DNA of 64,000 bases from Azoarcus sp. Aa7. GTDB taxonomy: Bacteria; Pseudomonadota; Gammaproteobacteria; Burkholderiales; Rhodocyclaceae. The translations under genes and the position numbers were made by a program. The stretch lies in assembly GCF_014822185.1 (NCBI RefSeq), contig NZ_QVLR01000056.1:1-64000 (forward strand), read 5' to 3'. Below are positions 58,631 through 64,000 of this stretch, piece by piece. Below the pieces are notes generated by a model. That model had not been told where the DNA came from. It saw nothing but the letters and a program-made list of their open reading frames with translations, and made no database searches. Position 1 is the first letter of the stretch. The number at the start of each line of letters is the position of its first letter.

Positions 58631-60190
58631 TTACCGGATGATGTCGAAGCTGTAGTCCGTCTTCGATGCCACGTTGGTATTGGCGTCCAGCGCCTCGAAG
58701 TACTCGTCGAGGATCTGCATCAACACGTGCAGCCCGCCCTGGTAGCCCCAGATCGGCAGCCGGTGGTAGTGGTGGCGGTCGAAGATGGGGAAGCCGATGC
58801 GGATCAGCGGTGTGCCGGTGTCGCGCTCGAGGTACTTGCCGTAGGTGTTGCCGATCAGGAAGTCCACCGGCTCGGTGTTGAGCAGCGAGCGCATGTGCCA
58901 CAGGTCGCGCTTCGGATACACGTGGCAGTCGCGGCCCACCGGCGACGCGTCGAGCAGCGCCTGCACCTTCGCCGCCCACTTGTCGTCGCCGTTGGTGGCG
59001 AGGATGTGGGTCGGCTCGCAGCCCAGGTCGAGCAGGAACTGGGTGAGGCCCAGCATCATGTCCGGATCGCCGTAAAGCGCGAACTTCTTGCCGTGCAGGT
59101 GGGCCTGCGAGTCGGTGATCGCATCGACGAGGCGGCCGCGTTCGAGCTTCAGCGCGTCGGGCACCGGCTTGCCGGTGATGCGCGACAGTTCCTTGAGGAA
59201 CTTGTCGGTGCCGGTGACGCCGATCGGGCTGTTGAGGGTGACGACTTCCTGGCCTTTCTCGGCGATGTACTTGGCGGTCTTCTCGGCAGAGTATCCCTGG
59301 TAGACGATGGTGGCCTTGGCGTTGAGCGCGGCGGCGGCTTGTTCCTTCGTCGTGCCGCCTTCGTACATGCGGAACTGGCCGTCGGTGGGGGTATCCCAGG
59401 CGTCCGACGGATCGCACAGGACGGTCGCCTCGACGCCCATCATCGAGAACAGGCGCTTGATCTCCTTCATGTTGCCGACGACGTAGCCGTCGAAGCCGCC
59501 GATGAAGTTCACCGTCTCGTTGGGCGCGCGTTCGAGCTTCGGCGCCGTGCCGGCCTTGCCGTCCCAGAAGTGCTGCAGGATGCCCTTCAGCGCGTTGTCG
59601 TAGCCGGTGATGTGGCTGCCGACGAAGGCCGGGGTGTGGGCGAAGGGCACGTCGTACTCGGCGGGCACGCTGCCTTTCTGCTTGGCGGTCTTGATGAAGG
59701 CGTCGAGGTCGTCGCCGATCACTTCGGCCATGCAGGTGGTGGAGACGGCAATCATCTCCGGCTTGTACAGGCTCAGGGAGTTGGCGAGGCCGTCGACCAT
59801 GTTGTTGAGGCCGCCGAACACCGCCGCGTCCTCGGTCATCGACGAGGAGACGCAGGACGTCGGTTCCTTGAAGTGGCGCGAGAAGTGCGAGCGGTAGTAG
59901 GCGACGCAGCCCTGCGAGCCATGCACGAAGGACAGCGTCTTCGAGAAGCCGTTGGCGACGAAGACCGCGCCGAGCGGCTGGCAGGCCTTGGCGGGGTTCA
60001 CCGTCAGCGCCTCGCGCTTGAAGTTCTTCTCGCGGTAGTCCCAGGACTTGGTCCAGTCGCGGATCTCGGCGACCTTGTCGGCCGGGTGGCCGAACTCGAA
60101 GTTGGCCTTCTTGTTCTCGAACAGCTCGGTGTATTCGGGCTGGCGGAACAGCATCTCGTGGTCGATGACCTTTTCAGCGTTTTGCGGCAT
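58631..60190 (-). CDS. nifK: Nitrogenase molybdenum-iron protein beta chain
   Basis: This 519-residue subunit carries the P-cluster cysteines Cys70 (AKACQPLG), Cys95 ([11 protein letters not shown]) and Cys153 ([12 protein letters not shown]). [21 protein letters not shown] is the conserved region beside the P-cluster. The length fits the NifK of Mo-nitrogenases from proteobacteria. It lies 64 bases after nifD and ends at the repeat array before nifE. Confidence 0.98.
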
Positions 60191-60254: not shown

Positions 60255-61709
60255 TCAAGCCGCGAAGGGATCCTTCGCCAGCCCCCACACCGGGCTGTTG
60301 ATGGCCATGTCCATGTCGCGGGCGAAGATGGCGAAGCCGTCGTAGCCGTGGTACGGGCCCGAGTAGTCCCACGAGTGCATCTGGCGGAAGGGCACGCCCA
60401 TCTTCTGGAAGACGTACTTTTCCTTGATGCCGGAACCGACCAGGTCGGGTTTGATCTTGTCGACGAAGTGCTCGAACTCGTGGCTATTGACGTCGTCGTA
60501 GATCAGCGTGCCGTCGTTCACGTAGTGGGTGGTGCGCTGGTAGTCGTCGCCGTGGCCGAACTCGTAGCCGGTGCCGACCACGTTCATGCCGAGATCTTCA
60601 TACGCGCCGATGACGTGGCGCGGACGCAGGCCGCCGACGAACAGCATCACCGTCTTGCCTTCGAGGCGCGGCTTGTACTTGGCGATCACCGCCTCGGTCA
60701 GCGCGCGGTACTTGGCGATGACCTTTTCGGTGTTCTCCTTGATCTTGTCGTCGAAGTGGCTGGCGATTTCGCGCAGGCTCGCCTCGATCTTCGACGGACC
60801 GAAGAAGTTGTACTCGACCCAGGGCACGCCATACTTCTCTTCCATGTGGCGCGAGATGTAGTTCATCGAGCGGTAGCAGTGCAGCACGTTGAGCTTGGCC
60901 TTGGGCGTGTTCTCCAGCTCGGCGAGGGTGCCGTCGCCGGACCACTGGGCGATCACGCGCAGGCCCATCTCTTCGAGCAGGATGCGTGAGGACCACGCGT
61001 CGCCGCCGATGTTGTAGTCGCCGATGATGGCGACGTCGTAGGGGCTGCTCTCGAACTTGTTCTTGTCCGGGTCGGTCTTGTCGAACACAAAGTCGCGCAC
61101 CGCGTCGTTGGCGATGTGGTGGCCCAGCGACTGGGAGACGCCGCGGAAGCCTTCGCAGCGCACCGGCACGATGGTCTTGCCGCCGTACTCCTTGGACTTC
61201 TTCTTCGACACCGCCTCGATGTCGTCGCCGATCAGGCCGATCGGGCACTCGGACTGCACGGTGATGCCCTTGTTGAGCGGGAAGAGTTCCTGGATCTCGT
61301 CCATGATCTTCTCGAGCTTCTTGTCGCCGCCGAAGACGATGTCCTTCTCCTGGAAGTCGGAGGTGAATTGCATCGTCACGAAGCTATCGACGCCGGTGGT
61401 GCCGATGTAATAGTTGCGGCGCGCCGCCCACGAGTACTGGCCGCAGCCGACCGGGCCGTGGCTGATGTGCACCATGTCCTTGATCGGACCCCAGACGACG
61501 CCCTTGGAGCCGGCGTAGGCACAGCCGCGGATCGTCATCACGCCGGGCAGCGACTTGATGTTCGACTTGACGTTGCAGTCGGGCTTGCCTTCCTCATGCA
61601 CCGCGAGGTGCTTGGCGCGCTTCTTGGCGGTTTTTTCGGGGTAGGCCTCGAGGACCTCGGCGATCAGTTCCTGGTTTCGGGCTTTGGTTTCTTCAACGGT
61701 GAGGCTCAT
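60255..61709 (-). CDS. nifD: Nitrogenase molybdenum-iron protein alpha chain
   Basis: This 484-residue subunit holds FeMo-co through Cys278 ([13 protein letters not shown]) and His445 ([20 protein letters not shown]). Its P-cluster cysteines are Cys63 ([11 protein letters not shown]), Cys89 ([10 protein letters not shown]) and Cys155 ([11 protein letters not shown]). His197/198 in [13 protein letters not shown] corresponds to the conserved histidine near the cofactor. The ATG at 61709 follows GGAGA; an upstream in-frame start would add only four residues. It is 186 bases from nifH. Confidence 0.98.
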
Positions 61710-61894
61710 GGTGCTCTCCAATCACAGAATCGAACTCTTCAATCCGGCGCTCCCACGTCCTGGGAGAGCTCTGCGCAAAGCGCGGACCGGCGGGCAGGCG
61801 ACCGGCCACCCAGGCCGCGCCACACTTTTCGCGGAGATCTCCGCGTTGCGCGCCGGCAGCCCCGCGACGGGCCTGCCGGACGCGCGGGAAGTGC
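61710..61894. other. nifH-nifD spacer with a perfect palindrome
   Basis: The 185-bp spacer contains CGCGGAGATCTCCGCG (61830-61845), a perfect 16-bp palindrome, in a GC-rich context. The transcript could form an 8-bp stem, although with little loop. No T-run follows in the transcription direction, so it is not a terminator; it might be an mRNA processing or stability site that keeps nifH mRNA in excess. Confidence 0.45.
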
Positions 61895-62800
<906 letters not shown>

Positions 62801-62919
62801 TCAGGTTGAGGTTTTCAGCGCTTACCGTTGCATGCATCCGGTATTGGCCGCTCCGAAACTCTTATAGGTCTTCGTCTCAAGTTGCGCGTTCGGCGAGACA
62901 TCACGGTGCAAGCCTCTTC

Positions 62920-62935
62920 AGCAACCCTTGTGCCA
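62920..62935 (-). promoter_or_regulatory. nifH: Sigma-54-type promoter of the nifHDK operon
   Basis: On the minus strand TGGCACAAGGGTTGCT fits TGGCAC-N5-TTGCW, with GG and GC ten bases apart. It is 144 bases upstream of the nifH start. A NifA upstream site of exact TGT-N10-ACA form was not found in the 250 bases beyond it. Confidence 0.88.
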
Positions 62936-63201
62936 GTACGGGAAAATTATCGTAACTGCCGGAAAATAAAGGAAAAGTGTGTTTGCGCGGATGTCGTGTC
63001 GTGCGCGTTGCGGCGATATACAAACCGAACAAAGGGCACAGAGTCTTGCGCGGAACGACGGGGCGGGGAGGGGCGCCGGCAACGGGCGCTGGATGGCGCT
63101 TTGCGCGCCGGCGCTGGTGCCGGCGGGCGGTGCGCATGTCTGTCGCGGGCCCGGAATACGCCTTGCTTGATGATCGGCAAACCCACTCGCAGGAGCACGT
63201 C

Positions 63202-63627
63202 ATGCAGATCGGTGTCGATACCCAGAGGGCAGTCGAGAACAAGCGCATCTTCGTCGTCGATGACGACGAGGTCAGCGGCATCGCGCTGCAGTTCATGCTT
63301 GCCGACGAAAACGAGACGCACGTGTTCGAGGCGCTCGACGCCGCGCTCGACAAGGCCAGCGCGTGGCCGCCGCAGCTGATCCTGCTCGGGCGCGGGCTGT
63401 GCGTCGGGCAGGAGGCGGCGCTGATCGCGCGCATCAAGGCGAATCTCGCCGGGGTGAAGATCCTGCTCGTGTGCGACGCCTGCAGCGCGCCCGACGTGGC
63501 GATGCTGCGCGCATCGGGCGCCGACGGCATCCTCACGCGACCACTGGATCTGGCGAGCGTACGGCGTAAAGTGGACGGCCAGCTCGGGCGGCGCATGTCG
63601 CTCGGCATCCCTCTCGTCGTCCTCTGA
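63202..63627 (+). CDS. Degenerate receiver-domain protein divergent from nifH
   Basis: This 141-residue protein has a CheY-like fold with the acidic pair in RIFVVDDDEVSG (residues 20-22). The phospho-acceptor position is Gly63 in LILLGRGLCVG instead of Asp, the switch Thr/Ser region is LLVCDACS, and the conserved Lys-Pro turn is ILTRPLDL with Arg in place of Lys. It is therefore a pseudo-receiver that probably cannot be phosphorylated in the usual way. The ATG at 63202 follows AGGAG. It is transcribed away from nifH and followed ten bases later by the truncated haemoglobin gene. Confidence 0.8.
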   Translation: MQIGVDTQRAVENKRIFVVDDDEVSGIALQFMLADENETHVFEALDAALDKASAWPPQLILLGRGLCVGQEAALIARIKANLAGVKILLVCDACSAPDVAMLRASGADGILTRPLDLASVRRKVDGQLGRRMSLGIPLVVL

Positions 63628-63637
63628 GGCCGCTCCG

Positions 63638-64000
63638 ATGCACGCTCCCATCCCGAAAATTGTCGCGAATGTGAACCCGCACTACGAGAGGCTCGGTGGC
63701 GAGCCTGCGGTGCGCCGGCTGGTCGAGCGCTTCTATGCGCTGATGTGCGAACTGCCCGAGGCGGAGAAGATCCGCGCGATGCATCCGCAAGACCTGGCGC
63801 ACGCGAAGGAGAAGCTCTTCATGTTCCTGGCCGGCTGGCTGGGCGGGCCGCCGCTGTACGCCGAGCGCCACGGCCCCCCGCGCCTCGGACGCGCCCACGC
63901 CGGCTTCGGCATCGACCGCTCCGCGCGTGACGCGTGGATGCTGTGCATGACGCGCGCGCTCGACGAGCAGGTGGCCGACGCGGAGCTGCGAGCGCAACTC
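63638..64000 (+). CDS. Group II truncated haemoglobin, 3' end beyond the window
   Basis: The frame is open from the ATG at 63638 to the last base, 121 codons, so at most a few residues are missing. The sequence has HYERLGGEPAVRRLVERFYALM, LFMFLAGWLGGPPLYAERHG and RAHAGFGIDRSARDAWMLCM, the TrHb2 (YjbI-type) pattern with an aromatic residue after the B helix, the proximal His and the conserved Trp. Such globins bind oxygen or nitric oxide. Divergent from nifH, it may protect nitrogenase from oxygen or NO, which is an inference. It follows the pseudo-receiver gene after ten bases. Confidence 0.88.
   Translation, partial: MHAPIPKIVANVNPHYERLGGEPAVRRLVERFYALMCELPEAEKIRAMHPQDLAHAKEKLFMFLAGWLGGPPLYAERHGPPRLGRAHAGFGIDRSARDAWMLCMTRALDEQVADAELRAQL

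Follow-up and report, generated by a model that had tools for sequence, protein, structure and literature searches.

The question raised by this locus is what a small response-regulator-like protein, encoded back to back with nifH in Azoarcus sp. Aa7, does beside nitrogenase if it can no longer be phosphorylated. The window, by which we mean the whole stretch of DNA analysed, comprises 64,000 nucleotides (positions 1 to 64,000 of contig NZ_QVLR01000056.1, assembly GCF_014822185.1). An earlier note, made from the sequence alone, had proposed that this protein and the truncated haemoglobin encoded next to it are an oxygen- or NO-sensing module for nitrogenase, operating without phosphotransfer and kept at nifH by selection. 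The features concerned are as follows:

58631..60190, minus strand: nifK (ORF; gene order and similarity match annotated nif clusters)
60255..61721, minus strand: nifD (ORF; gene order and similarity match annotated nif clusters)
61895..62776, minus strand: nifH, nitrogenase iron protein (ORF; 91% identity to the annotated Methylococcus NifH)
62777..63201, no strand: nifH/pseudo-receiver divergent control region, 425 bp (motif scan)
62920..62935, minus strand: nifH -24/-12 element TGGCACAAGGGTTGCT, agreeing fully with the consensus applied (sequence)
63152..63167, plus strand: sigma54-type -24/-12 element CGGAATACGCCTTGCT 5' of the pseudo-receiver (motif scan)
63191..63195, plus strand: AGGAG, likely ribosome-binding site of the pseudo-receiver (sequence)
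63202..63627, plus strand: stand-alone pseudo-receiver of 141 aa, the first of the genes divergent from nifH (ORF and translation, Pfam, AF2, family of 90)
63388..63390, plus strand: Gly63 codon (GGG) at the acceptor-Asp position of active receivers (counted from 63202; 1MVO alignment)
63538..63540, plus strand: Arg113 codon (CGA) at the conserved-Lys position (counted from 63202)
63628..63637, plus strand: ten-base spacer between pseudo-receiver and globin (sequence)
63638..64000, plus strand: truncated haemoglobin, ATG at 63638, 121 of its 135 aa within the window (ORF ends at contig position 64045)

The layout given in the earlier note is accurate: the receiver gene is divergent from nifHDK, with a 425-bp gap to nifH and then nifD and nifK, and ten bases lie between its stop at 63627 and the globin ATG at 63638. 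The complete globin ORF, which continues on the contig to 64045, encodes 135 aa (L009:839-1246; G, L and C numbers are our handles for genomes, loci and contigs). The same genome carries a second nifHDK cluster (L144, contig C106), the NifH, NifD and NifK of which are 95%, 79% and 67% identical to those of the window; no receiver match was found in the 12.6 kb around it.

Pfam recognizes a Response_reg domain (PF00072) in residues 16-124 of the window protein at 25.1 bits, which is under the curated cut-off of 30.2, and no other domain; the family to which it belongs is unnamed, being described by no Pfam or NCBIfam model. The AF2 model is a (beta-alpha)5 receiver fold (pLDDT 85, pTM 0.78) in which confidence falls below 50 pLDDT at tail residues 1-4 and 6-8. 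A Foldseek search gave 398 matches at E <= 0.001, the best row being the NsrR receiver (TM 0.72/0.85), and the 50 matches listed were all receivers, receiver-containing or receiver-like proteins. A profile alignment to the receiver of Bacillus subtilis PhoP (1MVO) places Gly63 and position 113 on columns which we take to be the acceptor Asp and the Lys of PhoP. The replacement of the acceptor by Gly and of the Lys by Arg had therefore been read correctly in the window protein.

These changes were followed through a family of 90 distinct members, obtained from 97 sequences by collapsing identical ones. At the acceptor position Gly is found in 80, Ala in five, Ser in four and Asn in one; Asp occurs in 0/90 and Glu in none, which upholds both the expectation that Gly would be kept there in other genomes and that of signalling without phosphotransfer at the usual site. 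No Asp is conserved nearby that might stand in for it: as an alternative acidic acceptor next to Gly63 we considered position 65, which is Asp in just 12/90. The Lys position (113) is Lys in 66 members, Arg in 19, as in the window protein, Thr in four and Val in one; since it is still Lys in 66/90, some switching logic might survive. The window protein does have the acidic pair of which the earlier note spoke (D20, D21 and D22 follow beta1), but this is not a trait of the family, position 20 being Asp in 75/90 members and position 21 acidic in 36/90. To judge from its residues, the phosphorylation pocket is degenerate across the family. AF2, Foldseek and the family alignment together thus describe a receiver fold without the acceptor Asp, that is, a pseudo-receiver.

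Conservation lies elsewhere. The conserved stretches are the tail (MQIGV[D/E]), the end of alpha1 with the alpha1-beta2 loop (QFMLxDExETH), alpha5 (VRxKVD) and the LGR thereafter, and column entropy averages 0.77 bits over the 13-residue N-terminal tail and 0.40 over the alpha1-beta2 loop, compared with 2.32 in alpha3 and 2.39 in alpha4. Predicted to be disordered and yet nearly invariant, the tail may be a docking peptide.

Among the matches listed in a search of 200 genomes, full-length or near-full-length members of the family were found in 16, our own included, the other 15 at 43-84% identity to the window protein. All 16 carry nifH, against 63/200 genomes overall, which indicates an association beyond chance. 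In a 388-genome sample of the phylum a clear relative (E < 1e-40) was present in four, again including our own, and all four possess nifH, which occurs in 40/388. These family counts leave out L025 and L026 (2/18 matches) and G468 and G572 (2/6), which are ordinary or distant receivers. Since 13 of the 29 genomes with a NifH at least 86% identical have no receiver among the matches listed, the protein is not universally required. Among plasmids, nifH was found in 245 records, of which 200 belong to Rhizobium or Sinorhizobium, but the receiver turned up in a single record, a Methylococcus plasmid annotated with nifHDK, then a "response regulator", then a "group II truncated hemoglobin", which is the order of the window.

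A scan of one genome per species, with a 17-sequence alignment as query, yielded 142 relatives, the best 80 of which were taken as loci; these overlap some genomes of the 200-genome search. The best 80 of 142 loci come from alpha-, beta- and gammaproteobacteria and from one contig labelled Fibrobacteria. The latter (L105) carries nifH, D, K, E and N, receiver and globin in proteobacterial order, and represents either a transfer or a mis-binned contig. Seven of the 80 could not be judged, as their contig ends less than 1.5 kb upstream of the receiver; in 72 of the remaining 73 the nearest detected upstream gene is a divergent nif gene, namely nifH in 67, nifE in three and nifB in two. Hence the linkage to nif which the earlier note had anticipated is conserved for the receiver, and a position away from nif, far from being the rule, was seen in 1/73. 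The nifH-receiver gaps of the 67 loci measure 341-1956 bp, with no tested gene between, and 61/67 are of 721 bp or less. The three nifE-receiver gaps (L063, L067, L116) are of 633-679 bp and contain readable putative ORFs of 99-204 aa on both strands. The one exception is Derxia lacustris (L079), in which no nif gene lies within 8 kb of the receiver; a sigma54-type element is kept upstream of this copy, and nifH is elsewhere in the genome. Distances between receivers correlate with those between NifH (Mantel rho 0.38, 41 loci) and NifD (0.57), the NifH-NifD value being 0.51, and none of 999 permutations reached these figures. This moderate congruence is compatible with shared inheritance, and is not decisive.

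The control region points to the nif regulon. Within 150 bp upstream of the receiver a sigma54-type element (NGGN8TTGCW, i.e. GG-N10-GC) was found in 77/80 cases (79 loci from the best 80 of 142, plus the window), while dinucleotide shuffles gave a mean of 1.8 and a maximum of 6. Similarly, TGT-N10-ACA occurs in 64/68 nifH-receiver intergenic regions (shuffles 4.9, maximum 11). The window itself has no TGT-N10-ACA NifA enhancer in 62777-63201, even with one mismatch allowed, and the nifH control region of its relative L058 is likewise without one. With the motifs in place, we infer that the receiver would be co-expressed with nifH by NifA and sigma54.

Relatives of the two genes have appeared in print as annotations. 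In the nif-fix cluster of the acid mine drainage fosmid DX-1A-14, nrf2 (hemoglobin) and nrf3 (two component response regulator) are adjacent ORFs of 414 and 426 bp with matches in Herbaspirillum seropedicae SmR1, and a sigmaN site is listed for nrf3 (PMC3912193). Judged from these descriptions rather than from sequences, they are very probably of the same types as our globin and receiver and of the same family; the portion of that paper available to us gives annotation only and does not mention the missing phospho-acceptor, a conserved linkage or a role (PMC3912193). Globins with a putative NifA promoter have been reported in nif clusters of Herbaspirillum and Burkholderia (PMC3093359), where the globin lies in the nif cluster as it does here but a receiver goes unmentioned in the available portion. 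The receiver is likewise absent from the portions seen of PMC3916325, PMC4999443, PMC6066989, PMC8788690, PMC9769520 and PMC12903952, and a full-text literature search turned up the pair as annotations only, with no functional account of the receiver. What was known, as far as the available portion of PMC3912193 goes, are annotated relatives; what is new is a pseudo-receiver in a role of which no description was found.

Receiver folds without an acceptor Asp are found in the N-domain of KaiA and in atypical regulators of the ChxR type. The pseudo-receiver of CikA (5jyu) resembles the present family in lacking that residue and in being presumably phosphate-independent, but the present protein, of 141 aa and encoded beside nif, stands free instead of forming part of a clock protein or transcription factor. 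With the stand-alone receivers of PF00072, such as Spo0F, CheY and DivK, it shares fold and topology, the first acidic residue after beta1 and often the beta5 Lys; unlike these, the family has no acceptor Asp (0/90) and possesses a conserved tail predicted to be disordered, and the window protein scores under the Pfam cut-off. At one annotated locus, that of the Methylococcus plasmid, no histidine kinase was found near the receiver.

Bradyrhizobium, the one genus studied in depth, includes both nodulating and non-nodulating diazotrophs, for which NodA served as a proxy. Among 205 genomes nifH was detected in 129, NodA in 113 and the receiver (E <= 1e-25) in 36. The receiver is present in 18/19 genomes with nifH and without NodA, versus 14/110 with both (Fisher P 2e-12, a statistic which ignores phylogeny). 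The sole NodA-negative exception, G752, was counted as negative and carries a decayed but open copy. The 14 NodA-positive genomes with a receiver comprise five that carry nifH twice, three whose receiver copies are broken (G620, G649, G642) and six that combine a single nifH with an open copy. In four further receiver-positive genomes (G629, G664, G688, G744) nifH was not detected at the threshold; the contig of G629 stops within nifH, and that of G664 some 220 bp upstream of the receiver. Three genomes with two clusters (G648, G685, G710) possess an intact receiver beside a nifH far from NodA, and their other nifH has no receiver or a weak, stop-bearing fragment. The upstream regions of 41 NodA-positive nifH genes (38 of the 96 match-negative genomes with nifH and NodA, and the second nifH of G648, G685 and G710) were searched at E <= 0.01: no trace of the receiver was found in 31, and ten gave truncated, stop-bearing or strongly diverged matches, some of which (E 0.002-0.003) may be due to chance. 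In L202, L207 and L208 a strongly diverged receiver-like gene stands opposite nifH, with 12-14 of 34 conserved positions and Gly at the acceptor; these copies resemble one another and may constitute a second subfamily.

The copies also differ in selective constraint. We assigned copies to a free or a symbiotic type, including G752 in the latter although its genome is NodA-negative, and left out the four strongly diverged copies of G610, G695, G639 and G758. The seven free-type copies retain 33-34 of 34 family-conserved positions and give dN/dS of 0.06-0.19 (median 0.10, 21 pairs), while the ten symbiotic-type copies retain 14-30 and give 0.20-1.12 (median 0.58, 43 pairs), the pairs in either set not being independent. 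Without the most decayed copies, G752 and G736, the symbiotic median is 0.35 (0.20-1.04, eight copies, 26 pairs), and without G636 as well it is 0.32 (0.20-0.63). The contrast therefore shrinks when these copies are removed but stays, and the ranges do not overlap. For nifH, over overlapping sets of loci, the free and symbiotic values are 0.072 and 0.055, and for the TIGR01616-like neighbour, again over overlapping sets, 0.17 and 0.26, a small difference. As constraint on the receiver is weaker in symbiotic clusters and nifH is equally constrained in both, it is the receiver in particular which seems to become dispensable in nodulating lineages. Among the window protein and three copies from the same genus, dN/dS is 0.18-0.34. 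A similar pattern of retention is known for NifV: rhizobia with nitrogen fixation outside the nodule retain it, and many of the others have lost it. NifV is the enzyme homocitrate synthase, however, and not a receiver-fold protein.

The globin has to be considered separately. The full protein matches Pfam Bac_globin at E 3e-36 (124.6 bits, cut-off 21), its best solved relative is 2XYK, a "2-on-2 hemoglobin", proteins named HbO are among its matches, and it is called group II after the annotation of its Methylococcus relative. That it forms one O2/NO-sensing module with the receiver, as the earlier note had it, we consider quite improbable. The ten-base spacing in the window speaks for it, as do the direct adjacency of the two genes in 15 of the best 80 of 142 loci, a globin (with another gene) opposite nifH in five genomes in which nifH has no receiver next to it (L043, L044, L050, L051, L054), and the O2 delivery proposed for a nif-linked, putatively NifA-driven Herbaspirillum globin in the portion seen of PMC3093359. 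But in the other 65 of these 80 loci no globin was detected directly after the receiver, one was found there in 6/16 receiver-positive genomes of the 200-genome search, and each gene is found without the other. At E <= 1e-8 the complete genomes G323 and G381, which have the receiver, give no match to the window's globin; G005 and G003, in which no receiver was found at that threshold, encode a globin 82-83% identical to it on a contig lacking any nifH match. The two genes are thus no obligate pair, and the pair is unsupported as the unit; conserved linkage to nif (72/73 judgeable loci) and selection to keep it there are upheld for the receiver. We regard the truncated haemoglobin as an optional operon partner, plausibly contributing to the receiver's task by delivering O2 or removing NO/O2. 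Other neighbours recur as well. The gene detected next in alphaproteobacterial loci frequently resembles that for the TIGR01616 nitrogenase-associated protein of Methylococcus, and in L098, L104, L083 and others a run of genes for a TIGR01616-like protein, a SagB-like nitroreductase, a rhodanese and an ankyrin protein lies downstream of the receiver, beside nifH. A protein of about 195 aa is encoded just downstream of globin or receiver in L061 (3643-4227) and in 12 further nif-linked loci, 71-87% identical to that of L061; its Methylococcus member has no Pfam or NCBIfam match, and its AF2 model (pLDDT 88) has no PDB fold match at E <= 0.001.

Other readings of the receiver were weighed against the same evidence. 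As an adaptor for nitrogen status it would mediate the ammonium switch-off of nitrogenase, or the control of NifA, through PII-type partners, and would be needless in bacteroids that export ammonium; the loss in nodulating Bradyrhizobium fits this as well as it fits an O2-related role. NifL is the classical nitrogen and O2 regulator of NifA. It exceeds its cut-off in just 2/31 receiver-positive genomes, the only ones counted, so that a different controller is conceivable, and replacement of NifL by the receiver is at most suggested; Methylococcus capsulatus (L072, G589) nevertheless has both, and no PII, DraT or kinase was present among 28 annotated features around the Methylococcus plasmid copy, the one locus inspected. 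On balance we find this alternative unlikely, though worth keeping in view. A stand-alone receiver binding NifA or RNA polymerase might instead tune the divergent nifH promoter, and its placement between two sigma54-type promoters in a shared control region, together with the pseudo-receivers known in transcription factors, lends this some appeal. Pfam finds only the receiver domain, however, and in 6/73 judgeable loci (best 80 of 142) the gene lies beside nifE or nifB or away from nif, so that control in cis of the nifH promoter is not needed; symbiotic clusters, moreover, presumably express nif without it. With no recognised DNA-binding domain and some loci not beside nifH, a local repressor or activator role is disfavoured, and we think transcriptional regulation improbable.

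If the pseudo-receiver sensed a ligand, for instance as a sensor of quinone or redox state, it would resemble that of CikA, which binds quinone and appears among the Foldseek matches, and the conserved cluster D35, E36, E38 and H40 could bind a metal or ligand; but the CikA structure is at rank 47 amid generic receivers, which is unspecific, and the conserved residues are located at alpha1-beta2, outside the degenerate pocket, which makes such a sensor very improbable. We can hardly credit, finally, that the gene is a hitchhiker with no part in nitrogen fixation, retained near nif by chance or shared transfer. Clusters of nif genes can indeed be transferred as blocks, and distances to NifH and NifD are just moderately congruent, but both the same-genus and the free-type Bradyrhizobium copies are under purifying selection, the gene has its own sigma54-type element, and constraint on it relaxes in symbiotic clusters while that on nifH is unchanged. 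Substitution for NifM was also examined, in 60 of the nifH-positive genomes: NifM exceeds its cut-off in 1/19 receiver-positive genomes (G027, which has a second NifH at 74%), in 0/19 receiver-negative genomes with NifH of at least 80% and in 21/22 with NifH of 75-78%. It tracks the NifH clade and not the receiver, and a simple substitution is unsupported.

The reading which we favour, and to which we would give just short of an even chance, is that the protein is a pseudo-receiver of the nif regulon, a phosphate-independent adaptor co-expressed through NifA and sigma54 that shields or gates the nitrogenase system outside the nodule. The protein, whose receiver fold has lost phosphorylation at the usual Asp and carries no recognised output domain, would be switched on by NifA/sigma54 together with nifH and would most likely act post-translationally, as a docking protein. 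The N-terminal tail and the conserved face of alpha1, the alpha1-beta2 loop and alpha5 would bind a partner in the nitrogenase system, the candidates being the nitrogenase enzyme or else its assembly or electron supply, and the system would thereby be shielded or gated where O2 and nitrogen status fluctuate, outside the nodule. The partner, the signal and the direction of the effect are what we infer in this scheme. Nodules differ from free life in buffered O2, ammonium export and plant-supplied metabolites, and on account of these differences an O2/redox shield or gate is our first choice, with control by nitrogen status second. The safest statement would be that the protein is probably a phosphate-independent, protein-binding module for nitrogen fixation outside nodules which, by its promoter motif, is co-expressed by NifA/sigma54.

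The family may also represent a class of nitrogenase accessory protein that would be new, namely a receiver independent of phosphorylation, required outside the nodule and dispensable within it, with an invariant tail docking on the nitrogenase system; this we hold to be a serious possibility, if on the whole a doubtful one. Which genes are needed for fixation outside the nodule is an open question of practical interest for the transfer of nif clusters to other hosts, and the present gene, although its annotation is that of an ordinary response regulator, offers a concrete candidate for a free-living component that has been missing. In this family the receiver fold has apparently been repurposed, to serve as the dedicated partner of a metabolic enzyme system and not of a kinase.
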